Source of the DNA: Thermodesulfobacteriota bacterium
GTDB lineage: Bacteria > Desulfobacterota > DSM-4660 > Desulfatiglandales > Desulfatiglandaceae
DNA: 37,926 bases
Direction of reading: 5' to 3'
NCBI GenBank assembly: GCA_028278625.1
Contig: JANQDY010000038.1
Span: 1-37,926 of the forward strand
The notes under the pieces: model-generated
The model's input: the letters and a program-made list of their open reading frames with translations, nothing else
Told to the model about the DNA's origin: nothing
The model's database searches: none
Program-made: the position numbers and the translations under genes
Shown: positions 9,215 to 24,283 of the stretch, one piece after another
Position numbering within the stretch: position 1 is the stretch's first letter
How the letters are laid out: each line of letters begins with the position of its first letter

Positions 9215-10090
9215 TTATTCAAACCTTCCTTCTCCCAGAAGTCCGCGGGGCATGAATGCCAGTATCACCGCCATCATCATATAGACGATCACCATGGCCA
9301 GATCCGTCACAAAAAACTCCGCAAGGGTTTGCACGACGCCAATGAGCAACGCCGCCACAACAGCCCCCCGGAGACTCCCCAAACCGCCGATGACAATCAC
9401 CACAAAGGAACTCAGCAGCATTTCATGCCCCATGATGGGATCGATGGTATAAAGGGGCCCGGCGATCACTCCCGCGATTCCCGCGAGAATACACCCCAGG
9501 GCAAAGGCCCCAACATGCACAAAGGTCATATTGATTCCCATGCAGGAGACCATTTCGGGGATGTGACTGGCGGCCCGAAGGATCAGGCCGATCTTGGTTT
9601 TTCCCAAGAAAACCATCAACCCCCCCATGGCGGCCGCGGTGACCAGCAGGGTTACGATTCTGAAGACCGGATAGTGGGTCCCCAAAATGGGAAGGGTCTG
9701 TTTCATGAAGGCCGGCAGTTCAATAAACCGCGGCTCATTCCCCCAGAAGTACTTGATGAGACCGTCCAGGAAGAACATGAGTCCATAGGTCAGAATGAGG
9801 GTATAGATGATGGACCGTTTCCGCATGGGTGCAATCACTGCCCGTTCGATGATAAGCCCCAGAACGGCGATGATAATGGGCGCAACAATGAGGGCCACGA
9901 AAAAATTGAGCCCCACGGAAACAAGGGTATATCCGGCATAGGCACCCAAAGCATACAGGGACCCGTGGGCCAGGTTCATGACCCGGCTCAAACCGTATAT
10001 GATGTTAAGACCGATGGCGACAATCAGAAACACACCACTCAAAACAAGACTGTTCAACACGATGTCCACGGAAGTGGCAAGAACACTCAT
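9215..10090 (-). CDS. livH: branched-chain-type ABC transporter permease LivH
   Basis: Permease of 291 aa with seven to eight membrane spans. The family motif IYGLSRVMNLAHGSLYALGA lies near residues 31-50, and the late GGLGSLRGAVV segment is also typical. A GAGGGGGA ribosome site precedes ATG 10090. It is separated from the binding-protein gene by 120 bases containing a strong hairpin, while the downstream liv genes abut directly. Confidence 0.93.
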   Translation of the reverse strand: MSVLATSVDIVLNSLVLSGVFLIVAIGLNIIYGLSRVMNLAHGSLYALGAYAGYTLVSVGLNFFVALIVAPIIIAVLGLIIERAVIAPMRKRSIIYTLILTYGLMFFLDGLIKYFWGNEPRFIELPAFMKQTLPILGTHYPVFRIVTLLVTAAAMGGLMVFLGKTKIGLILRAASHIPEMVSCMGINMTFVHVGAFALGCILAGIAGVIAGPLYTIDPIMGHEMLLSSFVVIVIGGLGSLRGAVVAALLIGVVQTLAEFFVTDLAMVIVYMMMAVILAFMPRGLLGEGRFE

Positions 10091-10111
10091 GATTCCCCCT
10101 CATTGGCTCAT

Positions 10112-10155
10112 GGCTGACGGTTTTTGGGCGGTTATGGTGCGCCAAACCGTCAGCC
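10112..10155 (-). promoter_or_regulatory. intercistronic hairpin between livJ-type gene and livH
   Basis: Perfect 12-bp arms GGCTGACGGTTT (10112-10123) and AAACCGTCAGCC (10144-10155) with a GGCG/CGCC inner extension. No run of U follows on the transcribed strand, so it is not a classic terminator. Similar stems after binding-protein genes stabilise the upstream mRNA and make the binding protein more abundant than the membrane parts; that role here is inferred. Confidence 0.6.
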
Positions 10156-10212
10156 GTGATACGAAATGCGGCTGGCGGAAGTATCTTGTCCGCCTGCAAT
10201 CATTTTTGTCGT

Positions 10213-11403
10213 TTATTCAGGAGGTCCCAGTTCTTTCGCGCTGAAAGTATGGATGACCTTCATGTAGATTTTGGCTCCGTACGGGTTCCCCGGTGCGCGA
10301 GCGGTTTCGGTGAGAACTGCATCATTTCGCATGCAGTTGTCTTTGGGCGATATGCGAACCACGCCGTAGGGACCGTCAAAGCTGATCCCGCGCAACGCAT
10401 CCGCGATCTTTTGGGGATCGGTTGAACCCGCCTTTTCAATGGCATTGAACAGGTTCATGGCGCCCACATAGCTGTGGCATGCGGCATCCGAAGGAATCGT
10501 GTTGAATTTCTTCCAGAAAGCGCCCTCCCATGCATCCGACTTTGGATTGTTCACATCCCAGCACCAGTCTGATGCTCCGAAAATACCGATGCAGGCATCG
10601 CCGCCGGCTTCCAGTTCCAAGGGACCGGGTGCCGCACCGGACACGATTCGGGCGTATTTTTGAATACCGAAATCATAGGCTTGTTTGGCAAAAACCGGAA
10701 TGACATTGGTGATCAGGGCAATATAGATACCATCCGCGCCGGAAGCCTTGATCTTACTGATGTAGCTGGACCAGTCTTTTGTCTTGATGGGCGCCCGATC
10801 GAACTTCTCGTTGTAGATCTTGATGCCGTTCTCTTTGGCCAGTTTGATAAATCGCTGGGCCGCATCGTGGCCCCAGGCATAATCGTGGACCAGCACATAA
10901 TAGGTTCTTTTTTTAAGATCTGGTGTCGCGAGAATTCCTTTGACATTCCCCACCGCGGTCTGGTCGTTGGCCAGCTGGCCGCAGCGAAATACCAGGGGAT
11001 TGAGTCCGTAGAACTTGGTTGTCATGACATGGGTGGATAGGAACGGCACATTCAGTTTGTTGATGTTTTTGGCAAGCGCCAGGCCCACGCCGCTGGAAAA
11101 GACGCCGATGAGGGCCTTGCAGTCATCCTTGAATACCAGTTTTTCCGCCTTGCTCACGGCAATGGGCGGTTTTACGCGGGTGTCTTCAACAATCAGGTTG
11201 ATGGGACGGCCCAGAACGGTCTTTTTTTCGTCGGCTGCCATCTGGATGCCCATTTTCATTTCTTCACCACCCTGTGCCACAATACCCGACAGAGGAACCA
11301 GCACACCGATGTTAACCGGTTTTTCGGCCATTGCAGTCATCGGCAACACAAAGAGTATTCCTGCTAACACACAAAAGAGAGATGCTCGGTACCACGCTTT
11401 CAT
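10213..11403 (-). CDS. periplasmic branched-chain-type substrate-binding protein
   Basis: LivJ-like (type I periplasmic fold, Peripla_BP_6) binding protein of 396 aa. The signal peptide covers MKAWYRASLFCVLAGILF to about TAMA-E, followed by VNIGVLVPLSGIVAQGGEE, the usual first strand. ATG 11403 has a strong AAGGAGGAG site; the frame is open further upstream but has no function there. It delivers substrate to LivHMGF. Relatives in anaerobes bind amino acids, aromatic acids or short organic acids, and the sequence alone does not say which. It lies between the Fe-S protein gene and the permease genes. Confidence 0.92.
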   Translation of the reverse strand: MKAWYRASLFCVLAGILFVLPMTAMAEKPVNIGVLVPLSGIVAQGGEEMKMGIQMAADEKKTVLGRPINLIVEDTRVKPPIAVSKAEKLVFKDDCKALIGVFSSGVGLALAKNINKLNVPFLSTHVMTTKFYGLNPLVFRCGQLANDQTAVGNVKGILATPDLKKRTYYVLVHDYAWGHDAAQRFIKLAKENGIKIYNEKFDRAPIKTKDWSSYISKIKASGADGIYIALITNVIPVFAKQAYDFGIQKYARIVSGAAPGPLELEAGGDACIGIFGASDWCWDVNNPKSDAWEGAFWKKFNTIPSDAACHSYVGAMNLFNAIEKAGSTDPQKIADALRGISFDGPYGVVRISPKDNCMRNDAVLTETARAPGNPYGAKIYMKVIHTFSAKELGPPE

Positions 11404-11484
11404 ATTCTCCTCCTTAAAAGTTAGACCCAAAACTCCGATTCTTACCGCGTTGTTCATTGTTTCAGTTTTCGCTATCACCCCCTC

Positions 11485-12801
11485 TTATCCTTCAATCACC
11501 TGATCCAGCAATTCCACCAGATCCACCACCCGCAGATCACTGTTGATCCGTTTGGCACCTTCATTCAGGTTGTAATGGCAGAAAGGACAGATGGAAACCA
11601 TTTTTTCAGCGCCGGTCCGCATCCCCTCCTCAATTCTTCCGGAGGCATTCTTGGCGGACCAGTCACCATATCCGGTCATGACACCGCCACCGCCGCCGCA
11701 GCAATAGGAATTATCCCTGATCCGTTCCATTTCCATCAGTTCCACCCCCGGAATGGCGGTCAAAAGTTCCCTGGGAATGTCATACAGGCACTCTTCCTCG
11801 TTCATACCAACATACGCGCCCTCCCAGAGCTTGGATCCGTCCTCATCCACCTCGAACTTGTTGAGATGTCGTCCCGTATGGCAGGGATCGTGGTAGGTCA
11901 CTTTGAGCGGCAGTTCCCCGGTGAATTTCAGCTGACCCTCCTTAAAAAGACCGTAGAGAAAATCGGTGGTATGGATGACCTGAATGCCGTCCATCAGATT
12001 GTCGTAATCGGAACTCAGAATATAGTCTTTCTTGATGGCCCGGTAACAGCCAGCGCAGGATGTCACGATGGTATTGACGCCTTTTTCCTGGTGGAGTTGG
12101 TGGAATGTCTCAAGGTTGGCTTCGGCCACCCGTTTGAATTCCGCTGCATCGCCGATGCGCATGGCTGTTGAACCGCAGCAGATTTCGTTCTCCCCCAAAA
12201 TGCCGAAATCGAGGCCCAGTTTCTGGAAAATGGAGGCCGTGGCCGTGGGAACCCCTCTGGCCGGCAGGTTAAAAGCACCCGTACATCCCACGTAATAGAG
12301 GATTTCAGCAGGCTGTTTGTTAATATTTTTAATGGGTTTCTTGGCTTTTTTAAAGGGTCTTGTCCAATCGGTTCGAACCCTTCTGGGCCCCTGATAGGGA
12401 TTGTTATAAGCGCTCAAGGATTGAACGATTTTTTTCTGGCTCGGCATGGGCCCCACACCGTCTTCCACGGCTTTCCGCCGCATGGCCTCCATGATTTCCG
12501 GTATGAAGGGCTTGTGGTCCAGTTCACACTGGTTCTGGCAACCGCCGCAAATGGTGCATTTGTACATGGCGTCCAGAAAACTCTCCGTCCATTCCAACTG
12601 GCCGTCCAGAATCCCCCTGGCAAAGGCGATTTTTCCCTTTGACGCCATCATACCGTCAAAACCGAATTCCACGCCTGCCGGGCAGATCTCCCCAAACTGC
12701 GGCGGGGGACCGTACTTGTAGGCGGTCTTGCAGTTCCCGCAGGCCGTGCATCTCCAAATCTTGTCTTCCAACTCCTCAAGGGTGGATATGTCCCATTCCA
12801 T
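11485..12801 (-). CDS. GlcF/HdrD-like Fe-S oxidoreductase subunit (two CCG domains)
   Basis: A cytoplasmic protein of 438 aa. Near the N-terminus are CTACGNCKTAYKY...CPAG and CTICGGCQNQCE, which would hold two Fe-S clusters. The first set is unusual: the third cysteine is followed by a long gap before CP. Two CCG (DUF224) modules follow, with ICCGSTAMRIGD, SCAGCY, DPCHTGR, YCCGGGGG and CPFCHYN. It would accept electrons from the adjacent GlcD-like flavoprotein and pass them on, as GlcF does for glycolate oxidase. ATG 12801 is preferred because GGAGGT lies just ahead; ATG 12813 is an alternative. A second protein of this type is encoded at 22823-24283. Confidence 0.87.
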   Translation of the reverse strand: MEWDISTLEELEDKIWRCTACGNCKTAYKYGPPPQFGEICPAGVEFGFDGMMASKGKIAFARGILDGQLEWTESFLDAMYKCTICGGCQNQCELDHKPFIPEIMEAMRRKAVEDGVGPMPSQKKIVQSLSAYNNPYQGPRRVRTDWTRPFKKAKKPIKNINKQPAEILYYVGCTGAFNLPARGVPTATASIFQKLGLDFGILGENEICCGSTAMRIGDAAEFKRVAEANLETFHQLHQEKGVNTIVTSCAGCYRAIKKDYILSSDYDNLMDGIQVIHTTDFLYGLFKEGQLKFTGELPLKVTYHDPCHTGRHLNKFEVDEDGSKLWEGAYVGMNEEECLYDIPRELLTAIPGVELMEMERIRDNSYCCGGGGGVMTGYGDWSAKNASGRIEEGMRTGAEKMVSICPFCHYNLNEGAKRINSDLRVVDLVELLDQVIEG

Positions 12802-12847
12802 ACTGACCTCCATGATTCATTTCAAAAAGGACCGGCAACATTGCTTT

Positions 12848-14284
12848 TCAGAATCCCAGTTTTCCCGTATTCATGATATCATTCGGATCGAGCAACTCCT
12901 TTACCCGCTTTAGCAGCATCAGATACCCCGGGTGGGCCCGCTTGTTGATCTCCCTCGCAAAGTCCACCGGCGGTTTATAAGGAATGCCGCCGGCATCCAG
13001 ATCCACTTTCAGGCATTCGATGATCGCTTTCCGTGCATTTTCCGTTGCCTCGGCACTCTTCTTGTTAAAAGGGACCATGGCCCTCAGCATGCCGTAATGG
13101 ACGCCCCGATAATTGGTGGCCCGAACGGAGGGGGAAAGGTTGTGATCGATGAGTATCTTCTTCCACGCATTGTACACGGGCGCCCACTTGTTCACGGGGG
13201 TAAAGGTCCCCGGCCAGGAAATGCCGCCACCGGCCATTTTCGTGTAGTTCTTTGTGGATCCCACAATCTGGCTGGGAAGTTGGGTCCTTGCCCGAAGGGC
13301 TTCCTCGGGATATTCCGCATATTGAATGGAGGTTCCCTTTTTCTGCTCTTCCGTTAACACGGTCTGCCAGATCTCTTCCCGGGCTTCTTTCTCCTTTTCC
13401 GTCCAGGAAAAGGTGGTGCCGAAATTGAACCATTCGGGTGCGTCATCCGGTTTCGGAATGTAGGGGGAAGGGATGGGAACCTGCGCCAGCCACCAGGAGA
13501 CAGCCGTCAGATCGTCACAGATTTCGTAGTTGCCCAGATTGACCATGTAGGAGACCATGTCTTCGATGTTCTGGGTGGAAACGGTAAAGACCTTCAATAC
13601 CGGCGGAATGGGATGTACGCGCAGCCCTACCTTTGTCACCACCCCGCTGGTCCCGAGCCATCCCTTGAAAAGCCCGTCCAATTGGGGAAGGGGGAGCACA
13701 CTGTGCCAGGCGTGTTCCTGGATGGCACAGGAGCCGACCCTCACCAGTTCCCCGGTGGGCAACACCACCTCCATGCTGGTAATCTCTTCGCTGTTGAGAC
13801 CGTAACGCCCGCTTAAGCCCCCGATGCCGTGGTTGAGGGCGCAGGAAGAGGATGAAGCGGAAGGGGGCCCCACGGGCCAACTCCACCGCAGGTTGTGCTT
13901 GTACAGCTCCGTCGCGAGCTGTGCGTGGCTGACGCCCGGTTCGACAATGGCGTAGTGGGACTCGGTATCGATCCTGATGATCCTGTTCATGCGTTTTAAA
14001 TCCAGCAGGATGCCCCCTTCTTCAGGGATACACAGCCCGCCGATATTGCTCCCGGCCGTGTAGGGGATTACCGGAATTTTTTCCTGGTTGGCAAATTTCA
14101 TGAGCGCTTGGATCTGTTCCACGGTCGTGGCCATCACCACATAATCGGGCAATTTCGGCGCCACGAAGGTAAGGTCGTAGGAATAGGCATAGCGGATATG
14201 CTTTTCCGCGGTGGCGTTCTCCTTTCCAACAATGGATATAAGTTCTTCCAGGATTTTGTCTTCCGACTTTGTAACGGCAACCAT
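12848..14284 (-). CDS. FAD-binding oxidoreductase, GlcD/D-lactate dehydrogenase type
   Basis: VAO/PCMH-fold flavoprotein of 478 aa. The FAD-binding part includes PYTAGSNIGGLCIPEEGGIL (near 72-91) and CALNHGIGGLSGRYGL; the C-terminal LDPNDIMNTGKLGF is the standard end of the FAD-oxidase C domain. It oxidises a 2-hydroxy acid or an alcohol group to a carbonyl. GGAGG lies nine bases before ATG 14284; a GTG nine bases upstream is too close to that site. Paired with the downstream Fe-S gene it resembles GlcDF or LutA/DLD systems. The substrate pocket cannot be assigned from sequence; the neighbouring semialdehyde dehydrogenase suggests that the product is an aldehyde or oxo acid. Confidence 0.87.
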   Translation of the reverse strand: MVAVTKSEDKILEELISIVGKENATAEKHIRYAYSYDLTFVAPKLPDYVVMATTVEQIQALMKFANQEKIPVIPYTAGSNIGGLCIPEEGGILLDLKRMNRIIRIDTESHYAIVEPGVSHAQLATELYKHNLRWSWPVGPPSASSSSCALNHGIGGLSGRYGLNSEEITSMEVVLPTGELVRVGSCAIQEHAWHSVLPLPQLDGLFKGWLGTSGVVTKVGLRVHPIPPVLKVFTVSTQNIEDMVSYMVNLGNYEICDDLTAVSWWLAQVPIPSPYIPKPDDAPEWFNFGTTFSWTEKEKEAREEIWQTVLTEEQKKGTSIQYAEYPEEALRARTQLPSQIVGSTKNYTKMAGGGISWPGTFTPVNKWAPVYNAWKKILIDHNLSPSVRATNYRGVHYGMLRAMVPFNKKSAEATENARKAIIECLKVDLDAGGIPYKPPVDFAREINKRAHPGYLMLLKRVKELLDPNDIMNTGKLGF

Positions 14285-14314
14285 TTTTCTCACCCTCCGT
14301 AAATAGTGTGAAGG

Positions 14315-15853
14315 TTATTTAGAATCCGTCGGCATGGAACTGATGGTGCCATCCCATGTGTCCACCTTGCCACTTACTTCCATGTCCTCGGGGAACCAGG
14401 TGGCGGTCACATTTTTCTGTTCCGTATAGAAGCGAATCCCGTCCATGCCCATCACGTGCAGGTCACCGAAGAAAGAATCCTTGTGGCCGGTAAATCCGAA
14501 GATTCCCAGGGGTACCGGAATCCCCACATTGATCCCCACCATCCCCGCATGGGTTTTCTTGGCAAACTCCCGCGCATAATAGCCGTTTTGGGTGTAGATC
14601 ACCGAACCGTTGGCAAACCGGCTGGCGTTCATGATGGCCAGGCCCTCTTCAAAACCGTTGACCCGCTTGATGCAAAGGACCGGGCCGAAGATTTCCTCGC
14701 GTCCCACGGACATCTCCTCGGTGACCTTGTCAAAGATGGATGGCGCAAGAAAAAACCCGTTTTCATATCCCGGCACCACGGGATTCCTGCCGTCCACGAC
14801 CAATTCGGCCCCTTCGTCAATGCCCGTCTGAATCCAGTCGGTGATAAACTTTAAGTGCCCCTCGTTCATGATGGGGCCCATGCCGGTATTGGGATCGTAG
14901 GCAGGTCCCAAATTGAGTTCCCCGATGAATTTCTTTAAGAGCCCAATCAAATCGTCGGCAATGCAATCCTCCACCACAACCACCGGACAGGCCATGCACC
15001 GGGCACCGGCACACCCGCAATAGGCATTGATAATCCCCCGGGCCGTCCGTTCCAGTTTACAGTCGCGAAGGACCAATGCGTGGTTCTTGGCTTCGGTCAA
15101 CGCCTGAACCCTTTTGCCATTGGCGGCCGCGGTGGCATAAATATGACGTCCCACCTTGGTGGATCCCACAAAAGTGACCCCCTTCACATCCGGATGTCTT
15201 AGAAGTATCTCTGCTTCATTTCGGCTGGTGGTCACCAGATTCACGACGCCATCGGGCAGGCCCGCTTCCTGCCACAGCTCCAGCAGGCGCATGGAGGATT
15301 GGGGCACAAAGCTGGCGGCTTTCAGCACAATGGTATTCCCCGTGGCAATGCACAAGGGCGTCATCCACCCGTGGGGGATCATGGCCGGGAAGTTCCAGGG
15401 AGCGATGCCCGCAAAGACACCCAAGGGCTCGTTGTACATGACCGTGTCATATCCCACACTCACGTTCATGCCCGAGACCCCCTTCATGAGATGGGGAATC
15501 CCGCAGGCAAACTCCACCACCTCATTGACTTTCAGGACGTCCCCCATGGACTCGGTCCAGTTCTTCCCCTCTTCACTGCACAGAAGATGGGTCAGTTCTT
15601 CCAGATGCTCGTCCACCAATGCTTTCATTCGATACAAGACCTGAACCCGTTTGGATGCAGGGGTATCGGCCCACTCGGGGAATGCCGCTTTGGCGGCGGC
15701 AATGGCTGACTCAACCTCATCGGCGGTACAACAGGGAGCCTTTGCAATGATCTCCCCCGTGGAAGGGTTGTAGCAATCCATGTACTTATCCGTTTTGGAC
15801 TCCAGCCATTGGCCGCCAACGCAATATTTTAATTTTTTCGGTTCGTTAGACAT
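14315..15853 (-). CDS. CoA-acylating methylmalonate-semialdehyde dehydrogenase-like enzyme
   Basis: Aldehyde dehydrogenase of 512 aa in the MmsA/IolA group, which makes acyl-CoA plus NADH from a semialdehyde. FVGSTKVGRHIYATAAANGK and AKNHALV are characteristic of MmsA, and the catalytic cysteine sits in GARCMACPVV. ATG 15853 has an AAGGAG site and lies inside the last codons of the GntR gene (8-base overlap), so regulator and enzyme are translationally coupled. A longer frame runs upstream into the regulator but has no support. With the GlcD-like oxidase it could turn a hydroxylated compound into an acyl-CoA. The true substrate may differ from methylmalonate semialdehyde. Confidence 0.88.
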   Translation of the reverse strand: MSNEPKKLKYCVGGQWLESKTDKYMDCYNPSTGEIIAKAPCCTADEVESAIAAAKAAFPEWADTPASKRVQVLYRMKALVDEHLEELTHLLCSEEGKNWTESMGDVLKVNEVVEFACGIPHLMKGVSGMNVSVGYDTVMYNEPLGVFAGIAPWNFPAMIPHGWMTPLCIATGNTIVLKAASFVPQSSMRLLELWQEAGLPDGVVNLVTTSRNEAEILLRHPDVKGVTFVGSTKVGRHIYATAAANGKRVQALTEAKNHALVLRDCKLERTARGIINAYCGCAGARCMACPVVVVEDCIADDLIGLLKKFIGELNLGPAYDPNTGMGPIMNEGHLKFITDWIQTGIDEGAELVVDGRNPVVPGYENGFFLAPSIFDKVTEEMSVGREEIFGPVLCIKRVNGFEEGLAIMNASRFANGSVIYTQNGYYAREFAKKTHAGMVGINVGIPVPLGIFGFTGHKDSFFGDLHVMGMDGIRFYTEQKNVTATWFPEDMEVSGKVDTWDGTISSMPTDSK

Positions 15854-16613
15854 TTTCATCTCCTTCATGAAAAGTTGTTTGGTTAGTAAATACCAGTTCC
15901 TTGGGATCAAAGGGGACGCTCTCATCCACACTGCAGAGGGCCTTTCCAACCTCCAGCAGATCGTGGGTCATGGCAATCCCAGCCGCAAGAGAATCCTTCT
16001 CTATGAGACATTCCAGAATCTTCTCATGGGCCTGGCGCACTTCCGCGTAGAAATCGCGTCCCAGATTCAACTGTTTCTTGATGTCTTCCAGCAGATTATC
16101 CACAAAATCGATGAGCAGCGTAAGCAGGGTGTTGCCCGCCATTCTGGCCAGATACCGATGAAATCCGATCTCTTTTGAAAGTTCGCTTCTCGGGGGTTCG
16201 ATGGTTCCCCCGATAATTTTTTTCAGGTTTGATACATCCTCTGGTGTGGCTTTGGAAGCGGCAATGCGCGCAACCGACGGCTCAATGAGGTACCGCAGCA
16301 TGGTGATTTCCCGAACCGAGACCTGTTGAAAATGAACAAAATTGATGAGGCTGTGAATGGTGGTTTTCATATCCACTTCCGCAACAAAGGTGCCACCACC
16401 CGTCCCTTTTCGAATTTCGATAAGCCCCAGCACTTCCAAAACCCTCAAAGCCTCCCGCATGGTGGCTTTGCTGACTTCAAACTGCTCCATCAGTTCCTTT
16501 TCGGAAGCCAGCCTGTCGCCGGGTTTCAATTGCCCCGAAAGGATGGCATCCCTTATCTGCCCGATGATTTTGTCTGAAACCTTTTCTGATTTGGTGGCGG
16601 TTTTAAATATCAT
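15846..16613 (-). CDS. GntR-family (FadR/FCD) transcriptional regulator
   Basis: Regulator of 255 aa with an N-terminal winged helix (SEKELMEQFEVSKATMREAL near residues 37-56) and a helical FCD ligand-binding domain from about residue 100. The likely metal-site histidines lie in FHRYLA, AHEKIL and MTHDLL. Proteins of this family usually repress the operon next to them and are released by its substrate or an intermediate. It is the first gene of the minus-strand catabolic operon and faces the divergent redox operon across 215 bases, so it may control both. Confidence 0.9.
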   Translation of the reverse strand: MIFKTATKSEKVSDKIIGQIRDAILSGQLKPGDRLASEKELMEQFEVSKATMREALRVLEVLGLIEIRKGTGGGTFVAEVDMKTTIHSLINFVHFQQVSVREITMLRYLIEPSVARIAASKATPEDVSNLKKIIGGTIEPPRSELSKEIGFHRYLARMAGNTLLTLLIDFVDNLLEDIKKQLNLGRDFYAEVRQAHEKILECLIEKDSLAAGIAMTHDLLEVGKALCSVDESVPFDPKELVFTNQTTFHEGDENV

Positions 16614-16687: not shown

Positions 16688-16721
16688 AATATTATAATAT
16701 TATAAATGTTATAAATATTAT
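16688..16721. repeat. AT-rich dyad and direct-repeat block in the divergent control region
   Basis: It contains the perfect palindrome AATATTATAATATT (16688-16701), inverted arms ATAATAT/ATATTAT (16694-16700 and 16715-16721), and TTATAAAT repeated at 16700-16707 and 16709-16716. It sits exactly between two opposed TTGACA boxes and could act as a shared UP element or as a binding site for a regulator or nucleoid protein. Confidence 0.55.
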
Positions 16722-16828: not shown

Positions 16829-17182
16829 ATGGGAATAGAGATTGATGCGCTCAAATGCACCGCCTGCATGGCCTGTGAACTTGCCTGCGGATACCATCGG
16901 GACGACGCCTTTGCCCTTCTTTCATCGTGCATTGTGCCCTACCGGGGGCGCGAGAAGAAAAACTACGTCGGGGTCATTTTGAAGGAGGAAGACAGCCTGG
17001 TGGCCGCCCGCCCGGAAGGCGTTGAGATCAACCGGATCGGTGAAGAACAGGATCCGGACAAGGAAGCCGATGCCTCCGCCAAACCGATGCTGCTTCGCGA
17101 ATCCTGCGACCTGTGCGAGGATATGGACGAAGGCCCCCTCTGCCTGGCATTCTGTCCCACAGGGGCAATTTCCATGGCCTAA
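16829..17182 (+). CDS. 2x[4Fe-4S] ferredoxin-like electron carrier
   Basis: A 117-aa cytoplasmic protein. The N-terminal motif CTACMACELAC and the C-terminal CDLCEDMDEGPLCLAFCP provide eight cysteines for two [4Fe-4S] clusters, with about 70 residues between them, more than in a classical 2Fe4S ferredoxin. GGGAGG precedes the ATG. It is the first gene of the redox operon, 25 bases before the AOR-like gene. Such carriers commonly form the small subunit of AOR-type enzymes (compare BamC next to BamB), so it probably pairs with the AOR-like product. Confidence 0.85.
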   Translation: MGIEIDALKCTACMACELACGYHRDDAFALLSSCIVPYRGREKKNYVGVILKEEDSLVAARPEGVEINRIGEEQDPDKEADASAKPMLLRESCDLCEDMDEGPLCLAFCPTGAISMA

Positions 17183-17207
17183 AAAAAGATGACAAGGAGA
17201 TAACATT

Positions 17208-18509
17208 ATGGAATATCTGGCATCCGACAAAATCGCCATCGTGGACCTGGAAACCCGTGACATCACCGAAGAGGAACTGGACGAGGATCTGGTACTGGAC
17301 AAAATCGGCGGGGCCGGCATCACAAGATATCTTTATGACCAGCATGCATCCGCTCAATCCAATGACGGCGGTCCTCTGATCTTGGGTACGGGACTTCTGA
17401 CCGGCACCCTGGTCCCCGGCGCGGCTCTGGGAATCATTACCGCCAAAAGCCCGCTGACCGGAAACATCTCCCACGTACCCCTTAATCTCGACGCGGGCAT
17501 GGAGCTGAAATACTCGGGGTTCGATTACATCGTCATCAAAGGAAAGGCTGACAAGCCCGTTTATCTCTGGATTCATGACGGCATTCTGGATATCAATGAT
17601 GCGGATGATCTCTGGGGGAAAGATACATGGTTTGCCACCGATCATATCCGCGGTGAAATGGGTGACGACCTGATACAGGTGCTGGGCATCGGTGAGGCCG
17701 GTGAAAACGGTTCGGATCTGGCGCAGATCGGCATCAACTACTGGCAGAGTGGGGACCGTCTCGGCTTCGGCAAACTGCTGGGAGAAAAGAACATCAAACT
17801 GATTGCCATTCGGGGCATGGGCCTCTTGGAAATATCCGAACCCGAGGAATTTGTGGCGGACTGCGCGGAACTCATTTCCGCCATTCGCTCAAATCCCGCC
17901 ATGGAAAAGCAGGGCATTGCCGCGGCAGCCACGGCCTTAGGTGCCGAGGATCTGGGTGACTGGCTCGGCCCCCTGACCCACCGTCAGATGGCCTGTTTTA
18001 ATACCCCGGTTGCCACCAACTCATTTCTTTTTCTGGACGATGATCCGACGCTCCTAAAAGAGAGCGGTGCCGCGGAACCGGGCTTCCTGGTCACCGATAT
18101 CCTGCCGTTGATGACCTTTAAAAAGGCAGGGCTTTCCGCGGAGGAGGCAGGGCGCGCCCTCAGGGCCTGCGCCAAATACGGCATTGACGGGGCCGCCGTG
18201 GCTGAACTCACGGCAAAAGCGGGGCTTAAAAGCTCAGGGGAAATCGAGACGTCTTTTCCTGATTTAAAGGCACCGGTGGAAAGTTGCGGCGATTCTGTTT
18301 TCAGCCCTTGGGCAGCGCTTACATCCCATACCGATGCAAACTGGGAGAGGCGCCAGGCCCTCTGTTATATCCTGGGGCTTCACCCCATATGGTTACAGAT
18401 GGCCAAGGAACTGACCGAAGAAAAGCTACTGGATCTGGCCGGGCTGGGTACGGAAATGGAATTCACCGGAGATACGCTGGATGAGGTGATCGGCGACATT
18501 CTGGCGTGA
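17208..18509 (+). CDS. shortened AOR-like protein lacking a complete Fe-S site
   Basis: A 433-aa relative of aldehyde:ferredoxin oxidoreductase (usually about 600 aa). The tungstopterin-binding N domain is clear: LILGTGLLTGTLVPGAALGI, AKSPLTGN, YSGFDYIVIKGKADKPVYL, DADDLWGKDT, GIGEAGENG and the end GEKNIKLIAIRG. The glycine-rich AGRGG stretch is altered (SGDRLGFGKLLG). The CxxCxxxC cluster motif reads CFNTPVAT at 263-270, with threonine at two of three cysteine positions. The C-terminal part is condensed and stops where the last AOR segment would begin. AAGGAG precedes the ATG. It may be a non-canonical enzyme fed by the adjacent ferredoxin, or a binding or assembly protein without AOR catalysis. 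Confidence 0.82.
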   Translation: MEYLASDKIAIVDLETRDITEEELDEDLVLDKIGGAGITRYLYDQHASAQSNDGGPLILGTGLLTGTLVPGAALGIITAKSPLTGNISHVPLNLDAGMELKYSGFDYIVIKGKADKPVYLWIHDGILDINDADDLWGKDTWFATDHIRGEMGDDLIQVLGIGEAGENGSDLAQIGINYWQSGDRLGFGKLLGEKNIKLIAIRGMGLLEISEPEEFVADCAELISAIRSNPAMEKQGIAAAATALGAEDLGDWLGPLTHRQMACFNTPVATNSFLFLDDDPTLLKESGAAEPGFLVTDILPLMTFKKAGLSAEEAGRALRACAKYGIDGAAVAELTAKAGLKSSGEIETSFPDLKAPVESCGDSVFSPWAALTSHTDANWERRQALCYILGLHPIWLQMAKELTEEKLLDLAGLGTEMEFTGDTLDEVIGDILA

Positions 18510-18516
18510 TTGGCGA

Positions 18517-19731
18517 ATGGCCCAATCAGACACCAAAAATCAAAAAATCGGCATCTACACCGGAAGGGGCGCATCCCATTCCTGGCTGTGGTTCGTTGAT
18601 GTCTTTGAACGGCTCGGATTCTATCACTTGGCGTTTTTGACGGAAACGGACCTCATCCGTAACGGCCTGGGCAGTCTGGACGTTCTGGCCGTATCGGGCG
18701 GCGACACATTCGCCATTGCGGAGGCATTGGGATCAAAAGGCGCGGACCGGCTCAGCACATTCATCAACAATGGCGGCCTGTACCTGGGGTCCTGCGCCGG
18801 CGCCTATCTGCCGCTACGCTCCTCCAAAGAGCATTTGAACCATTTCAACTTCGTTTCCGCCAAGATCACCAATCTGACGAAGAGACTCCCGGAAGCGAAC
18901 CGTATGCGGGAGAAATTCTGCACCTGTTACGGCTGCTCCTTCATTTACCATCCCGTGAGAGAGGCGGTCCGGGTGACCACCCGACCCGGTTCTCTCGTAA
19001 AGGAACCCGCAACCTTTGAAGCCCCCCTTTATGGGGGTCCCCCCATGACCATGGACAACCCGGCATCGATCCTGGCCACCTACACCGGCTTCACCCGCAA
19101 AACGGTTTTTCTGGTGGATCGGTCCCTGGCTGAGAAAACCCTCATGGGGAACGCGGCGGTGATTCGGGAAAAAATGGGTCGCGGATATCTCCATCTGTAC
19201 GGTCCCCATTTCGAGCACCCCCACTTCGGGACCGCCAACAATTTCCTGATCAACCAAATGACCCATGATTTGTTGCCTAAAAAAGCATCGGATGCGGCTT
19301 TTGCGGACCATACAGAGATGCTTCGGGATTCCCACAAAAAGGGATTCATCAGAGATCTCAAACGGGAACTGAGCAATTCGAGAATCGTGGCGGCGGGCCT
19401 TGAAATGATGCCGCTCAAATGGACCATCGGCAACAAAATTTACGAAACCGGCAAGATTCGCGTATATCTGGAAGCCCTTTGGCAGCGCCTCCGCTTTTTT
19501 GAGAAGGAAGAATCCATTTTGGTGCGAAAAGGCGAGGAAGATCTGCTGGCCGAGGCATCGGTCCGGGTCACCCGAAACGTCCGCCGGATCAAGAAAGGAT
19601 GGGATCAGAAAACCGATACCCTATACGCCGCAACAACCTTATTCAGCCTTTTAAACAAGACCAGCGCACTCTTTCTGGATATCTATTTCAGAAGCAAACT
19701 CTTTCATTCCATTCGGGAAAATCGAATATGA
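18517..19731 (+). CDS. BPL_N / class I glutamine-amidotransferase-like protein
   Basis: A 404-aa protein whose N-terminal 220 residues have the flavodoxin-like GATase1 fold of the BPL_N family: KIGIYTGRGASHSW, LAVSGGDTF, and the nucleophile elbow YLGSCAGAYLPL with Cys93. Biotin ligase catalytic motifs are absent. The C-terminal 130 residues are helical, basic and of unknown function. The gene begins 7 bases after the AOR-like stop and its TGA overlaps the start of the cytochrome gene (ATGA), so it is an integral operon member. Possible roles are amidation or modification of a cofactor or a complex subunit; no function is established for this setting. Confidence 0.75.
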   Translation: MAQSDTKNQKIGIYTGRGASHSWLWFVDVFERLGFYHLAFLTETDLIRNGLGSLDVLAVSGGDTFAIAEALGSKGADRLSTFINNGGLYLGSCAGAYLPLRSSKEHLNHFNFVSAKITNLTKRLPEANRMREKFCTCYGCSFIYHPVREAVRVTTRPGSLVKEPATFEAPLYGGPPMTMDNPASILATYTGFTRKTVFLVDRSLAEKTLMGNAAVIREKMGRGYLHLYGPHFEHPHFGTANNFLINQMTHDLLPKKASDAAFADHTEMLRDSHKKGFIRDLKRELSNSRIVAAGLEMMPLKWTIGNKIYETGKIRVYLEALWQRLRFFEKEESILVRKGEEDLLAEASVRVTRNVRRIKKGWDQKTDTLYAATTLFSLLNKTSALFLDIYFRSKLFHSIRENRI

Positions 19732-20630
19732 AAGCCTCTATGCCGCCATCAAAAAAACAATCGGGCAACAATAAAATCCTACGGCAGGCCCTATCCCTCA
19801 TGCTGTTTGTCTCACTCACCGCCCTAACCTCTTTTTCAAACGCCGCCAATATTCCCGGCCCGCAATCGGGCTGGTTCATCAATATGACGCTTTTCGCCCA
19901 ATCGGCCCACGGCACCTTTACCTGCCAAAAATGTCACGGAGACATGGTTCAGGGGAACATCATGCATCCCGATTCCAATAACCCCGCCTTTCTTAGGGAA
20001 AATGCCAACCGTCAATACGACTACGGCCGATGCAGCGCCTGCCACAAGCCTTCTTACCAGCAGTATCTCAAAGGGTCACACGCAAAAGCCCTGAAAAAGC
20101 AGCTTTCGGAATCCACCACCCGGTACAATCAACTGGCCCTGGACAAGCGGGCCCCCACATGCGGCGACTGTCACTCGAGCCACTATGCAAAGGCCCATTT
20201 ATCAAGGGTGGAGATCGGCCGACACATGGTGTCTGTCTGCGGTTCCTGCCATCCGGCCCAGACCGCCACTTACCTTCGGGACTATCACGGCAAGGCCGCC
20301 GTCAATCTGGGAGACAAGAACGCGGCCTTTTGCACCGATTGCCACGGCGCCCACCAATGCCGCTCCCTGAAAGAGAAAAAAGAAGCCCTTGCCGCCTGCC
20401 GGAGATGCCACCCGGAGGCCAAGGAATCGTTTGCCCAGGTGGTCATCCATCCCACGGTTGAGGGTGTGCCCCAGGATGACAAAGAGAAAAGAGCCCGGGT
20501 TGCGCTCATCCGCGTGGTCACCGTTTTAATGAGCATCCTGGTGATCCTGGTGGTCGCTTTCTTCTACGGCCACAGTTTCGTATGGATGCTGAGGGAACTG
20601 CATGAAAAACTGAGGAAGCATAAACCATGA
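19728..20630 (+). CDS. membrane-anchored six-haem cytochrome c
   Basis: A 300-aa exported protein. It has a signal peptide with a hydrophobic run near residues 17-36 and probable cleavage after SNA. Six CxxCH haem sites lie at residues 66, 102, 145, 171, 202 and 224, and a C-terminal transmembrane helix covers about 257-280, followed by a basic cytoplasmic end. The haem part would lie in the periplasm. The start overlaps the upstream stop (ATGA), and the stop overlaps the next start in the same way, so three genes are coupled. It probably passes electrons between the cytochrome b product next door and the seven-haem protein or soluble cytochromes. Confidence 0.9.
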   Translation: MKASMPPSKKQSGNNKILRQALSLMLFVSLTALTSFSNAANIPGPQSGWFINMTLFAQSAHGTFTCQKCHGDMVQGNIMHPDSNNPAFLRENANRQYDYGRCSACHKPSYQQYLKGSHAKALKKQLSESTTRYNQLALDKRAPTCGDCHSSHYAKAHLSRVEIGRHMVSVCGSCHPAQTATYLRDYHGKAAVNLGDKNAAFCTDCHGAHQCRSLKEKKEALAACRRCHPEAKESFAQVVIHPTVEGVPQDDKEKRARVALIRVVTVLMSILVILVVAFFYGHSFVWMLRELHEKLRKHKP

Positions 20631-21313
20631 GACAACAAAAGGAACCTGAAGAGACGTTTGTCCGCTTTTCGCCCCTTCAGCGATTGATGCACCTGGCGGT
20701 GATGATCGGCTTTACGGGTCTCGCCATCACCGGCTTTTCGCTCAAATTCAGCCACCAATGGTGGGCCCAGGGGTTTGTATGGTTGGTGGGTGGCGCCCCG
20801 CATCTGGCCTGGCTGCATCGGTTTTTTGCGGTGGTGACCTACGGTTGCGTGGTGGTGCATATCCTCTGGCTGGTTTATTTCAAGCTGGTGCTGAAAGGAA
20901 GCCTTACAGGCCCTCAGTCCCTCTTCCCCAAAGTCCGGGATATCAAGGATCTGTTTCAGCACGTGGGCTATTTCTTCGGCAAAGGGCCCCTTCCCAAATT
21001 CAACCGTTTCACCTACTGGGAGAAATTCGATTATCTGGCGCTCTTTTTGGGCATGAACACCATGGGTCTGACGGGATTGTTTTTGTGGTTCCCAGGGTTT
21101 TTCACCTCTTTTCTGCCCGGCTATTTCATCAATCTGGCCCAGGTGCTCCACCTCTATGAGGCCATCATGGCGGTGGCCCTTAAATTCGTGGTTCACATTT
21201 TGACAACCCACTTAAGACCGGAGACATTTCCGGTGGACAAAAGCATCTTCAACGGCGAAACCACAAAGGAAAGGATGATGCGTGAACATCCGGGGGAATG
21301 GGAAAACCTTTGA
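20627..21313 (+). CDS. cytochrome b561-type membrane protein
   Basis: A 228-aa membrane protein with four main hydrophobic helices (about 22-40, 64-86, 138-157 and 170-192) and histidines in or next to them (RLMHLAV, LHRFFAV, VVHILW, VLHLYEA, FVVHIL) suited to ligate two haems b, as in the formate dehydrogenase/hydrogenase gamma family. The start overlaps the six-haem cytochrome stop (ATGA). It likely exchanges electrons with menaquinone and the periplasmic six-haem domain. Confidence 0.87.
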   Translation: MRQQKEPEETFVRFSPLQRLMHLAVMIGFTGLAITGFSLKFSHQWWAQGFVWLVGGAPHLAWLHRFFAVVTYGCVVVHILWLVYFKLVLKGSLTGPQSLFPKVRDIKDLFQHVGYFFGKGPLPKFNRFTYWEKFDYLALFLGMNTMGLTGLFLWFPGFFTSFLPGYFINLAQVLHLYEAIMAVALKFVVHILTTHLRPETFPVDKSIFNGETTKERMMREHPGEWENL

Positions 21314-21314
21314 T

Positions 21315-21346
21315 ATTACGGAATGGGGAACGCGGATTGCGGAATG
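21315..21346. repeat. short degenerate GGAATG repeats between cytochrome genes
   Basis: The 49-base gap holds ATTACGGAATG and ATTGCGGAATG in tandem, 21 bases apart. This repetitive style is common as intergenic filler in anaerobic deltaproteobacteria. It has no evident coding role and breaks the otherwise tight spacing of the operon. Confidence 0.4.
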
Positions 21347-21362
21347 AAAACACAGGAATAAA

Positions 21363-22826
21363 ATGGCAAAACAATTGAAGGGACGTTTCATTAAGAGGGT
21401 CTTTTTCTTAAGCATTTGCATGCTGATGTTCCTCTTCGGGATTCAGGCAAATGCCGCTCAACATAATCCGATGATGCCATCCAATTCCGATGGCAGAACC
21501 CGGGACTGCCTGGACTGCCACAGGACCCCCAATGTGGCCACCAATGCCGGGGCATTTGCTTCCCAGGCATTTTGTCTCGAATGCCACCAGAAAGATTCCT
21601 GCGTCAGGACCGTCGGAAAAGAGAAGGTTTCACTCAAAATCGATCCCGCAAAAATTCGCAAAGGGCGCCATGCCTTTGTGGGATGCATTTCCTGCCACCG
21701 GGATGTGGCCAAATCCCCCCACCAATCGAAAAGGGGGGCTGAGTGCACTTCCTGCCACCCCTTTCATAACGGCGCGGGGGACATCCATGCACCCCACCTG
21801 AGGGTCCGCTGTCAGGCCTGTCACAGCGTTTATAAATATGTTTCTCTGGACAAAGCGTCGGGCGAAGTGCGGCTGGCACACATGAATGACAAAAAAGTTC
21901 CCATCGGCCTGACCGACCATGAATTGCAGGATACGGGAAAAGAAGACTTCTGCCAACGCTGCCACACAAAGGGGAACAAAGTGGGCGCGGCCGACATGGT
22001 CCTGCCCTCCAAGAGCATCCTCTGCATTATGTGCCACGATGTCTCAATCACCATGGGCCCACCCCTCTTTTGGATTGCTTTCATCTTGTTCATCATGGGT
22101 ATTGGCGGAACCGTTTTCTTCTGGTTCCAGGGAAGCGTGGAAGGGGAGGAAAAATCGCTCCATCGCAAAATGGCCCTGGCCTCCGAAGGACTGTGGCGGA
22201 CCTTGTTTTCAAGGGAACTCTTTGCCATCATCAAAACCTTCTTGATGGATGTTATCCTTCAGCGCCGCCTCCTTCAGGAAAGCGTCAAACGATGGGCCAT
22301 TCATTCCCTTATTTTCCTCCCCATACTCTTTCGCTTTCTCTTGGCCATCTTTACTTTCTTTGTCTCCCGCATCGGTCCCGAAACCTCCCTTGCATATGCC
22401 TTAATCAATAAGAACAGCGGATTTGCCGCATTTACAAATGACCTTTGTGGCGGTCTCATCCTGTTGGGGATTTTACTTTCGGCACTTCAGCGGTTGATGA
22501 TTAAACCACCCCATGTGATTGCCGAAACCAAGGACAATCTTGCGCTGCTGCTGCTCGGTCTTCTGGTCTTTTTGGGCTTTGTGGCGGAAGGGGTGCGACT
22601 CCTGATGACGGAGATTTCACCGGAGGTGGGCCTATACGCTTTTATCGGGTATCCCCTTTCGAGGGGTTTATCGGTTATGGGATTTGATTGGACCGCTGTC
22701 TATTCATATCTCTGGTGGGCCCATGCCCTCTTGGGGGCGATCTTTATCGCCTATCTCCCTTTCGGGAAGATGCGACACATCTTTAACACGCCCCTTACAT
22801 TGCTTTTAAACTACAAGATGAAATGA
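21363..22826 (+). CDS. seven-haem cytochrome c fused to NarI-like membrane cytochrome b
   Basis: A 487-aa two-part protein. A signal peptide (about 1-31) precedes a periplasmic domain with seven CxxCH sites at residues 49, 71, 108, 128, 150, 197 and 221. From about 233 it continues into a membrane domain with some five helices, related to nitrate reductase gamma/DsrM/TmcC, with histidines inside or near the helices (AIHSLIF, WWAHALLG) for haem b. The NarI-like unit is usually a separate gene; here the periplasmic haem wire is covalently attached. The HdrD-like partner follows with an ATGA overlap, the same pairing as DsrM-DsrK and TmcC-TmcB. Confidence 0.87.
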   Translation: MAKQLKGRFIKRVFFLSICMLMFLFGIQANAAQHNPMMPSNSDGRTRDCLDCHRTPNVATNAGAFASQAFCLECHQKDSCVRTVGKEKVSLKIDPAKIRKGRHAFVGCISCHRDVAKSPHQSKRGAECTSCHPFHNGAGDIHAPHLRVRCQACHSVYKYVSLDKASGEVRLAHMNDKKVPIGLTDHELQDTGKEDFCQRCHTKGNKVGAADMVLPSKSILCIMCHDVSITMGPPLFWIAFILFIMGIGGTVFFWFQGSVEGEEKSLHRKMALASEGLWRTLFSRELFAIIKTFLMDVILQRRLLQESVKRWAIHSLIFLPILFRFLLAIFTFFVSRIGPETSLAYALINKNSGFAAFTNDLCGGLILLGILLSALQRLMIKPPHVIAETKDNLALLLLGLLVFLGFVAEGVRLLMTEISPEVGLYAFIGYPLSRGLSVMGFDWTAVYSYLWWAHALLGAIFIAYLPFGKMRHIFNTPLTLLLNYKMK

Positions 22827-24283
22827 GACGGACGGTCTCTCACGGGAAGAACATGGCGGAAAACGAAACCACAAACAGCGAAAACACACCGGAAACCAAA
22901 GAGGTTCCTGACCTGCTGGTTTCCAATCTGGACATCCGCCGCTTGATCGAACTGGAGGCCTGCACCCGCTGCGGCGAATGTCTCACATGGTGTCCGGTTT
23001 ACGATCAGGATGCCAAAGAGAGCATTATTCCAAGGGCCAAAGTGACGGATTTTCTGAACATCATCCGATCCCAACAGGGCCTCGTGGGACGCATTCTGAA
23101 GAGCGAAAAAGGGCCGCATGCCCTTAAAAAGCTGCTGGGCGCTGTTTTCGGTTACCGGGAAGTCACCGATGAACAGGTAAAGGATTTTGTGAAAAACCTC
23201 TACGAATGCTCCACCTGTGGCCAGTGCCACATCGTCTGCCCCGCCAAGATCGATACGGTCAATCTATGGGAAGATATCAGAAGACTCATTGTTCAGGCGG
23301 ATTACGGACCCCTCGAGACCCAGAAGGCGCTGGTCAAGAGCGTCAAAAGCTACGACAATCCCTGGCAGCAGCCCCGGGCCGGGCGGGCCAAATGGGCCAG
23401 GCGGGCCAAAAAGGAGGGGCTCATTAAAGACCTCCCCAAAGAGATGAAGAAAACGGGCGGTAAGGTTCTCCTATTCTTGGGGTGTACCGCTGCCTACGAT
23501 ATCAACGTCAAGCAGGTGGCGGTGAGCACCATCAACATTCTGGAAGCGCTGGGCATCGAATACGGTATTTTCGGAAAAGACGAAAAATGCTGCGGCAGCG
23601 TCATGCTCAGAATGGGAGATGCGGAATTTGAACGGATTGCCGGAGACAATATCAAAATGTTTAACGAGGCCGGCTTTGAAACCCTCATCTCCTCCTGCTC
23701 CGGCTGTTTCAAAACCATCAAGGAAGACTACCCGAAGGTGGGCCGTCTCAATTTTGAAGTCCTGCACACCGCGGAATTCCTTCGCCGTTTGATCGAAGCC
23801 GGAAACCTGAAATTCAATACCCCGGTCATAAAGAAAGTCACCTACCATGACCCCTGCCATCTGGGCAGGGCCTCCGGCGTCTACGATGATCCCCGGTTTA
23901 TCATGGCGGCCATTCCTGGTCTTGAACTGATTGAGATGCCCCGAAACCGTGAATACTCAAGGTGTTGCGGTGCGGGCGGCGGTCTCAAATCAGGATATCC
24001 GGACATTCAGAACAAAATGGCGCAGCGCCGCGTCCGGGAAGCGGAGGAAACAGGTGCCCAGGAACTGGTTTCCGCCTGCCCTTTCTGTTACCAGGGGCTT
24101 CAGGTGGGAATTACGGCGTCCAATTCCCCGCTGATAATGCGGGATATCAGCTTTCTGGTGGAAGCGAGCCTTAAGGGCCAAAAAGAGGATCAACCAAAAA
24201 AAGAACGAAAGGTCAGAAAAACGCGGAAAACACGGGAACCGAAAGCGGAAGAACCCCAAGAAAAATCCCTCGAAAGCGCTTAG
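22823..24283 (+). CDS. HdrD/DsrK/TmcB-like Fe-S protein with two CCG domains
   Basis: A 486-aa cytoplasmic protein. Two [4Fe-4S] motifs are CTRCGECLTWCP (47-58) and CSTCGQCHIVCP (129-140). Two CCG modules follow: GCTAAYD...KCCGSVMLRMGD...CSGC and DPCHLGR...RCCGAGGG...CPFC, the scaffold of the noncubane cluster in HdrB/HdrD. The last 40 residues are a Lys/Glu/Arg-rich tail absent from typical relatives. The start at 22823 overlaps the upstream stop (ATGA); ATG 22853 is an alternative closer to the homologous region. It would connect a cytoplasmic donor or thiol/disulfide pair with the membrane NarI-like domain. Confidence 0.88.
   Translation: MRRTVSHGKNMAENETTNSENTPETKEVPDLLVSNLDIRRLIELEACTRCGECLTWCPVYDQDAKESIIPRAKVTDFLNIIRSQQGLVGRILKSEKGPHALKKLLGAVFGYREVTDEQVKDFVKNLYECSTCGQCHIVCPAKIDTVNLWEDIRRLIVQADYGPLETQKALVKSVKSYDNPWQQPRAGRAKWARRAKKEGLIKDLPKEMKKTGGKVLLFLGCTAAYDINVKQVAVSTINILEALGIEYGIFGKDEKCCGSVMLRMGDAEFERIAGDNIKMFNEAGFETLISSCSGCFKTIKEDYPKVGRLNFEVLHTAEFLRRLIEAGNLKFNTPVIKKVTYHDPCHLGRASGVYDDPRFIMAAIPGLELIEMPRNREYSRCCGAGGGLKSGYPDIQNKMAQRRVREAEETGAQELVSACPFCYQGLQVGITASNSPLIMRDISFLVEASLKGQKEDQPKKERKVRKTRKTREPKAEEPQEKSLESA

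Follow-up and report, generated by a model that had tools for sequence, protein, structure and literature searches.

A conserved seven-gene redox locus combining an apparent pseudo-AOR with an Hdr-type membrane module: a putative pathway-specific electron outlet

In this work, we analysed a stretch of 37,926 nucleotides (the window; contig JANQDY010000038.1, positions 1 to 37,926) from a bacterium of the Desulfatiglandaceae, and in particular a run of seven redox-related genes, here called F1–F7, at 16829..24283. All seven are intact open frames on the forward strand (Table 1) and stand where the initial annotation of the window had placed them. Pfam and NCBIfam assign F1 to the 4Fe-4S ferredoxins, F2 to AFOR_N only, a domain of the aldehyde:ferredoxin oxidoreductases (AOR), F3 to BPL_N/S51, F4 to the multihaem cytochromes c, F5 to cytochrome b561, F6 to the c7 cytochromes with a marginal NarI match, and F7 to two CCG domains plus a 4Fe-4S domain, and PADLOC returned no match for any of the seven proteins. 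Read from the sequence, ATGA overlaps join F3/F4, F4/F5 and F6/F7, and gaps of 25, 7 and 49 bases separate F1/F2, F2/F3 and F5/F6, respectively. The start of F4 is most likely at 19728, which gives a protein of 300 amino acids (aa) and replaces the mechanical frame start at 19599, because of the ATGA overlap with F3 and the lengths of the homologues. The initial count of four junctions with an ATGA overlap or at most 7 bases is therefore exact, with three overlaps and one 7-base gap. Scans for promoters and terminators gave counts not above those of shuffled sequence and thus lend no support on their own.

Table 1. Features of the window and of related loci (L numbers). Positions without prefix refer to the window.
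Feature	Position	Strand	Description
F1	16829..17182	+	Ferredoxin-like, 117 aa, eight Cys for two [4Fe-4S] clusters
F2	17208..18509	+	Apparent pseudo-AOR: shortened AOR relative without AOR cofactor residues, 433 aa
F3	18517..19731	+	Class I glutaminase-fold protein, helical C-terminal part, 404 aa
F4	19728..20630	+	Hexahaem cytochrome c, N-terminal signal-like segment, C-terminal hydrophobic anchor
F5	20627..21313	+	Membrane cytochrome b, b561/FdnI type
F6	21363..22826	+	Heptahaem c domain fused to NarI-like membrane domain
F7	22823..24283	+	HdrD-type iron-sulfur protein, two complete CCG motifs, eight ferredoxin-type Cys
Palindrome AATATTATAATATT	16688..16701		Candidate operator in the divergent promoter region; similar in most relatives
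GntR/FCD regulator	15846..16613	-	Divergent from F1–F7
Aldehyde dehydrogenase	14315..15949	-	Methylmalonate-semialdehyde (CoA-acylating) family; TIGR01722 537.6 bits, cut-off 448.5
GlcD/VAO-type flavoprotein	12848..14293	-	Assigned by family profile
CCG iron-sulfur protein	11485..12813	-	Beside the flavoprotein; PF02754 in two stretches
LivFGMHK	6739..11478	-	Branched-chain-type ABC uptake system; also in many relatives
MtaA-like methyltransferase	5683..6708	-	URO-D family; PRK06252 310 bits, cut-off 244
SsuABC/radical-SAM set	L028:16582-20953; also L041–L058, L154		Nit1C gene order without nitrilase
c6 + fused b/c7-NarI + HdrC/HdrB-like unit	L137:1493-13144 (also L134, L136)		Behind HdrA-MvhD-MetV-MetF

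The redox gene set of the initial annotation is widely kept. Scanning 84,980 species genomes once with the F2 alignment, we obtained 30 loci. Of these, 29 are distinct, because L012 and L013 consist of the same letters in two bins; L013 was left out of the counts over 29 and of the F2 tree. The tree was also made without L132 and L133 (repeats of L114 and L115) and L037. F2 frames of at most 380 aa were left out, as were loci L066–L095, which repeat other loci or were refetched with longer flanks. F1–F7 are complete and in order in 17 of the 29 distinct loci, F7 being truncated where the contig stops in L001, L012 and L019, and in nine others the order is kept up to the contig end (two of these nine reach F1–F2 only). 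The order is thus common to 26 of 29 loci as far as the contigs reach, at protein identities of about 40–94%. The three window genes to the right of F7 (Ysc84, SLT and PPDK-like) recur in none of the 29 distinct loci, which argues that the linkage of F1–F7 is more than chance. In the remaining three, here type II (L005, L006 and L028), F1–F3 are followed by a Rieske/cytochrome b6 unit in place of F4–F7, in the order one-haem NarI protein, Rieske protein, cytochrome b6, subunit IV and cytochrome c-HdrD fusion; subunit IV is supported by Pfam in L005, matched by a frame of the same size in L006 and was not called in L028. When F2 was used to search proteins, 1,478 of the 8,000 candidates scored reached E≤1e-10, and full AORs are probably among these; among the matches listed (119 of 120 besides the query) the lengths are 426–453 aa and the identities 58–82%, with end-to-end cover. 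Several of the records carrying relatives are named Syntrophaceae. The contig behind L012 and L013 occurs identically in two metagenome-assembled genomes, one assigned to Anaerolineales and one to Syntrophobacterales, which is a binning error.

F1 matches Fer4 domains, keeps its eight cysteines in all 29 rows of its alignment (the window counted) and adjoins F2 at every one of the 50 loci checked (L012 and L013 counting as two). F2 scores 172.8 bits against AFOR_N, and the N-terminal part of its predicted structure has an AOR-like fold; the model is of middling quality (predicted local distance difference test, 62.7), so the lack of fold matches in its C-terminal half counts as no evidence. 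AFOR_C (PF01314), the part with the pterin motifs, gave no match at E 0.01. In what we take to be the residue numbering of P. furiosus AOR, the equivalents of R76, N93 and D489 of the pterin site are gone in all 46 rows of the F2 family, and the D489 residue is found in 16/16 full-length AORs as against 0/46 of these rows. F2 also lacks the [4Fe-4S] ligands of AOR, CxxCxxxC and Cys494. This motif with its fourth cysteine is kept in none of the 32 rows of groups A, A2 and B, the window's own, whereas CxxCxxxC is kept in 6 of the 14 rows of groups C and D, and two group C relatives, L102 and L106, retain the AOR cluster motif. In a profile alignment, the AOR positions left without counterpart number about 114 internally and 88 at the C-terminus, and in the tree a 100/100 branch splits the F2 family from 16 full-length AORs. 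Judged from its sequence, F2 seems to be a pseudo-AOR, of a clade apart from the true AORs, that has lost the parts holding tungsten. The cytoplasmic tungstopterin unit with which the initial annotation had begun its electron path is not supported, since F2 shows neither an AFOR_C match nor the three pterin-site residues nor the 4Fe-4S motif. Because the cluster ligands are kept in some relatives and lost in the window's groups, the pattern suggests that an AOR-type protein was stripped of its cofactors stepwise and retained beside the ferredoxin. F2-type proteins are often named 'aldehyde:ferredoxin oxidoreductase' in the sources, and the number of tungsten enzymes predicted for these bacteria may therefore be too high.

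The membrane side of the locus comprises F4–F7. F4 has six CXXCH motifs, invariant in 23/23 rows (window counted), and a hydrophobic segment at residues 255–289. F5 belongs to the b561 family (PF01292, 52.2 bits) with H22, H64, H175 and H190 invariant in 20/20 rows, and it stays below the cut-off of the formate dehydrogenase gamma equivalog (38.5 bits against 115.85). The seven CXXCH motifs of F6 and its H314, H454 and H472 are invariant in 19/19 rows (window counted), and its NarI-like part scores 21.8 bits against the cut-off of 22.9 (PF02665). In F7 (CCG, 130.6 bits) 18 cysteines are invariant in 18/18 rows, and both CCG motifs, C221/C256C257/C292/C295 and C345/C381C382/C419/C422, are complete in all of them; two complete motifs are what an HdrDE-type protein has, although this is not specific, as other CCG proteins may have two, and F7 also gives scores with GlpC- and GlcF-type dehydrogenase subunits. 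Of the parts initially predicted for this locus, the 13 haem c sites (six in F4, seven in F6), the HdrD-type protein and the cytochrome b, here of FdnI type, are supported, as is, with its marginal score, the NarI-type membrane part. No window frame besides F4 and F6 has two or more CXXCH motifs. In a sequence search of the PDB, F4 alone had no match, and the F4 profile and F6 had one weak cytochrome match (28pb).

The membrane genes also occur outside the locus. Among 395 genomes of Desulfobacterota (the phylum of Desulfatitalea), in which at most 4–6 candidates per genome were scored for F2, F3 and F4, so that misses are possible, F4 was found at 370–442 bits in 12 genomes, always on the same contig as F2 and at most a few kilobases away, at 318–332 bits in six others and at 92–108 bits in three. 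In the six, F4 precedes a 716-aa frame with seven haem motifs. For L137 this frame is an F5–F6 fusion, the identities of the whole membrane unit being 44% to F4, 48% to F5 and 40% to F6, and F5 and F6 are also one fused frame in L023. According to Pfam, HdrA-like, MvhD, MetV-type and methylenetetrahydrofolate reductase (MTHFR) genes stand before the membrane unit of L137, which is followed by HdrC- and HdrB-like genes. Judged by the sizes and sequence starts of their genes, L134 and, the MvhD frame aside, L136 are laid out in the same way. In L135 and, as far as the contig reaches, in L139, the membrane unit comes with an HdrD-like gene. A related membrane unit at L138:1791-12947 lies beside putative NuoE/NuoF and formate dehydrogenase genes. 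Because a related unit follows HdrA-MvhD-MetV-MetF, the F4–F6-type membrane part appears to serve other cytoplasmic donors too; F4–F7 look like a plug-in Hdr-type membrane module, and the L137-type unit is a possible membrane outlet for MTHFR. Moreover, relatives of F1–F3 occur with Rieske/b6-HdrD or plain NarI-HdrD units. Of the complex initially proposed, the conserved gene set stands, but its genes behave as exchangeable modules. Scattering of the genes in relatives, named at the outset as a possible refutation, was not seen for F1–F7 in the type I loci, i.e. those with the order of the window, and is partly seen in group C, where F3 lies on a different contig from F1–F2 in all eight genomes.

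F3 has the fold of the class I glutamine amidotransferases with an intact glutaminase-type Cys-His-Glu triad. Foldseek alone gave weak matches (best E 1.1e-4, ThuA-like), and the glutaminase match came from a separate later comparison. On this basis F3 looks like an enzyme and not an electron carrier; the GATase-like assignment made initially is kept, and its place in the electron path is not. F2 was found in 35, F3 in 36 and both in 34 of the 395 genomes (Fisher p 1.5e-45, kinship uncorrected); short F2-type calls were read from the score table, where, apart from fragments, a gap lies between 246 and 178 bits. The co-occurrence holds even though separate contigs carry F2 and F3 in all eight group C genomes, in which F3 stands with a plain NarI protein, with HdrD where the contig reaches it, and mostly with ABC/radical-SAM genes.

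In many relatives, an SsuABC-like transporter, an FMN-reductase-like gene, a TIGR04043 radical SAM gene with GNAT domain and an AIR-synthase-like gene lie 3' of F7; the closest families of the last, methanogenesis marker 2 and sll0787, are both below cut-off. We take TIGR04043 and TIGR04049 to be the Nit1C families, in agreement with their gene names. Of the 21 genomes to which 21 of the 30 loci belong, 18 have TIGR04043 above cut-off. This family was found in 29/33 F2-positive genomes (33 of the 35, without G089 and G371) as against 0/29 F2-negative ones, which were 29 of the other 360 and hand-picked among genomes with AOR-type matches, not random. In G289 and G309, two of the four misses, the gene is fragmented, and among 14 well-known control genomes one was above cut-off. 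In the window, the radical-SAM set was not seen in the 13.6 kb after F7, where not every frame was searched; in the close relative L002, transporter and radical SAM genes follow F7 at a distance of about 6–11 kb, on its contig and strand, and in L001 the contig ends within F7. The accessible text of PMC1199592 gives the Nit1C order as radical SAM, acetyltransferase and AIR synthase, and this 2005 paper, as far as accessible, knew of no experiment on the function of Nit1C; later work, in its accessible part, mentions Nit1C in cyanide-assimilating bacteria. The relatives of the F1–F7 locus carry these three protein types too, arranged alike, and they differ from Nit1C by the ABC transporter and redox genes and by having no Nit1-type nitrilase above cut-off. 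A Nit1 nitrilase was rejected as a part of the system, as none of the 21 genomes has one above the cut-off of 502.6; nine have a more distant nitrilase at 165–227 bits. A 240-aa protein family (c13) also lies 3' of F7, at L006:16979-17695 and in nine other loci, and its L006 member has no Pfam or NCBIfam match.

Divergently from F1–F7 lies an operon (Table 1) in which the initial annotation saw an oxidation pathway, with F1–F7 as its electron outlet. Conservation supports this proposal: of the 26 loci whose upstream DNA is long enough, 22 have a divergent GntR gene (absent from L005, L006, L028 and L030), and 21 of these 22 have GlcD; GlcD was not seen in L003 because the contig ends just past GntR. 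Desulfatitalea alkaliphila M08but (L029) combines F1–F7 in order with divergent GntR, GlcD and CCG genes. The profile of the GlcD flavoprotein aligns with p-cresol methylhydroxylase (PCMH) from end to end (E 3.5e-35), and its match to D-lactate dehydrogenases is confined to the FAD domain. The true start of the aldehyde dehydrogenase is probably internal, the TIGR01722 match beginning at residue 41. The URO-D protein passes the cut-off of the methylcobalamin:CoM methyltransferase subfamily and stays below that of the MtaA equivalog (400). Five relatives (L008, L009, L015, L018 and L027) have an MFS gene. The palindrome in the shared promoter region has one match in the window at no more than one mismatch and none in shuffles, and it overlaps with a -10-like box. 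In 17 of 23 regions the best match to the palindrome scores above dinucleotide shuffles at p≤0.05, the motif having been chosen from the same set. The FadR-type GntR operator TNGTN(3-4)ACNA was rejected, with one match in the 23 intergenic regions against 7.7 in base shuffles. In group C, F1–F2 also stand among GlcD/CCG genes: the arrangement GlcD-CCG-GlcD-F1-F2-CCG is complete in 4 of 8 loci (L104, L107, L108 and L109), and in the other four (L102, L103, L105 and L106) the contigs stop at or near F1 or its GlcD.

We hypothesize, at somewhat better than even confidence and from sequence data, that the F1–F7 locus is a pathway-specific electron outlet, and that in sulfate-reducing and syntrophic bacteria its products probably feed the electrons of a degradation pathway into the cell membrane. 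The GlcD-CCG dehydrogenase of the divergent operon would oxidise an imported organic substrate and deliver electrons to F1, the two-cluster ferredoxin, carried on F2 as an AOR-derived scaffold that would no longer bind tungstopterin or a cluster of its own. From F1, electrons would pass to F7 at the cytoplasmic face, then to the NarI-like domain of F6 and thus into the membrane, where F5 and the c haems of F4 and F6 may provide the link to menaquinone and the periplasmic cytochrome pool, the products presumably forming a physical complex. F3 would be a glutaminase-type enzyme serving the same pathway, probably with the radical-SAM/GNAT/AIR-synthase-like set of the relatives. This hypothesis is based on the conserved order of F1–F7, the pairing with GntR and GlcD, the invariant carrier residues of F1 and F4–F7, the presence of F1–F2 among GlcD/CCG genes in group C, the F5–F6 fusion in L023, the related membrane unit behind HdrA-MvhD-MetV-MetF, the co-occurrence of F2 and F3 and the palindrome in the shared promoter. 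It also fits Desulfococcus multivorans, for which the accessible part of PMC5109826 describes pathway-specific electron-transfer proteins encoded with catabolic genes. In a wider and rather doubtful version, F1–F3, NarI-HdrD, the sulfonate-type ABC transporter and the radical-SAM/GNAT/AIR-synthase-like set may be one undescribed respiratory-biosynthetic system, in which ammonia from F3 would go to the AIR-synthase-like protein in PurL/PurQ style for making or activating a nitrogen compound or thiol cofactor, and F2, as a docking or gating part, would link this chemistry to switchable membrane electron modules.

Several observations weigh against an outlet. The three type II loci have neither F4 and F5 nor an adjoining GntR-GlcD operon, and L030 is also without GntR. 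The aldehyde dehydrogenase is missing from the operon in L011, L016, L017, L025 and L029 and replaced by a 38–39% relative in L004, L014, L021 and L023. The membrane part of F6 has only three invariant histidines, the fourth (H384) being present in 12/19 rows. F7 with its two complete CCG motifs, present in all 18 rows, equally suits a disulfide reductase, which leads to the main alternative, reverse flow. Electrons of menaquinol or periplasmic cytochrome c would then pass via F4–F6, and F7 would reduce a cytoplasmic disulfide or feed a low-potential acceptor, as in HdrDE or DsrMK(JOP). The simplest arrangement among relatives consists of a NarI protein with HdrD alone, as in HdrDE, and sulfonate-type ABC genes near the locus in relatives and the MtaA-like gene in the window would suit it as well. 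However, the usual neighbour is an oxidation operon, the GlpC- and GlcF-type scores on F7 fit a dehydrogenase partner as well, and the NCBIfam cut-offs of DsrK, TmcB and HmcF are far from reached, so we consider reverse flow unlikely, if still the foremost competitor. It is improbable that F4–F5 and F6–F7 are two separate enzymes merely sharing an operon with F1–F3: the exchange of modules between loci would agree with this, whereas the fusion of F5 with F6, in L023 and in the 716-aa relative (shown for L137), and the position of strong F4 matches beside F2 in 12/12 genomes do not.

The 13-haem side could also be an outlet to extracellular acceptors or partner cells, in the manner of CbcL, given an FdnI-type cytochrome b adjoining a multihaem cytochrome c and relatives in several Syntrophaceae-named records. 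This is quite improbable, because the window has no further multihaem frame of the kind sought above and no porin among the 27 proteins run against Pfam, and two Syntrophaceae loci, L005 and L006, carry the Rieske/b6 version. By far the least probable is the view behind the initial annotation, that F2 works as a tungsten aldehyde oxidoreductase, which would make the complex an aldehyde:quinone/cytochrome oxidoreductase. The AFOR_N score, the N-terminal fold and a small Fe-S partner gene, as the accessible part of PMC6365974 describes for AorA and BamC, would be expected of such an enzyme. On the other hand, the loss of the R76, N93 and D489 equivalents throughout the family, of the cluster ligands in all 32 group A/A2/B rows and of the AOR positions left unmatched in the profile alignment speaks against it.

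Other genes of the window include a large Eco57I-type N6-adenine methylase with a possible specificity domain (1681-4452), a 755-aa protein with PPDK_N and PEP-utiliser mobile domains (27553-29820), an NmrA/NAD-binding protein fused to DUF2867 (30774-32312) and, adjoining the latter, a hybrid PAS/GAF histidine kinase with receiver (32342-35377).

HdrDE, DsrMK, TmcBC and HmcEF each pair a cytoplasmic CCG iron-sulfur protein with a NarI-like cytochrome b. The pair F7 and F6 resembles them (their composition is partly given in the accessible parts of PMC5109826 and PMC10504309), and differs in the seven c haems carried by F6 on one chain and in the second cytochrome b (F5) and hexahaem cytochrome c (F4) added to it. 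The NCBIfam cut-offs tested for Tmc, Dsr and Hmc subunits are missed by a wide margin: F7 scores 93.5 bits against the TmcB cut-off of 735, 79.7 against the DsrK cut-off of 400 and 69.5 against the HmcF cut-off of 750, and F6 scores 17.3 against the TmcC cut-off of 240. With AorAB and BamBC, composed of AOR and ferredoxin subunits, the locus shares the AFOR_N fold and the small Fe-S partner gene, whereas F2 lacks the AFOR_C match, the pterin-site residues and the cluster ligands, and stands apart by the 100/100 branch. The divergent dehydrogenase is like the GlcD- and PCMH-type flavoproteins in being an FAD_binding_4 protein with a CCG partner and in its end-to-end PCMH match; in PCMH, however, the partner of the flavoprotein is a cytochrome, and here the flavoprotein adjoins a CCG iron-sulfur protein. 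The MTHFR-HdrA-MvhD clusters share a c6 plus fused b/c7-NarI unit related to F4–F6, but their cytoplasmic side consists of MetF, MetV, HdrA and MvhD with HdrC- and HdrB-like proteins, without F1–F3. It would mean that one Hdr-type membrane module may work with both a dehydrogenase pathway and MTHFR clusters, and the link to the radical-SAM/GNAT/AIR-synthase-like set offers a handle on Nit1C-like genes. The initial annotation had called the complex apparently undescribed, and no description was found in literature titles and abstract openings, most subscription papers lying outside this scope. Hdr-NarI membrane electron modules are of a known kind; what is new, as far as we found, is the composition of F1–F7, the presence of a pseudo-AOR and the close linkage with F3 and the radical-SAM set.

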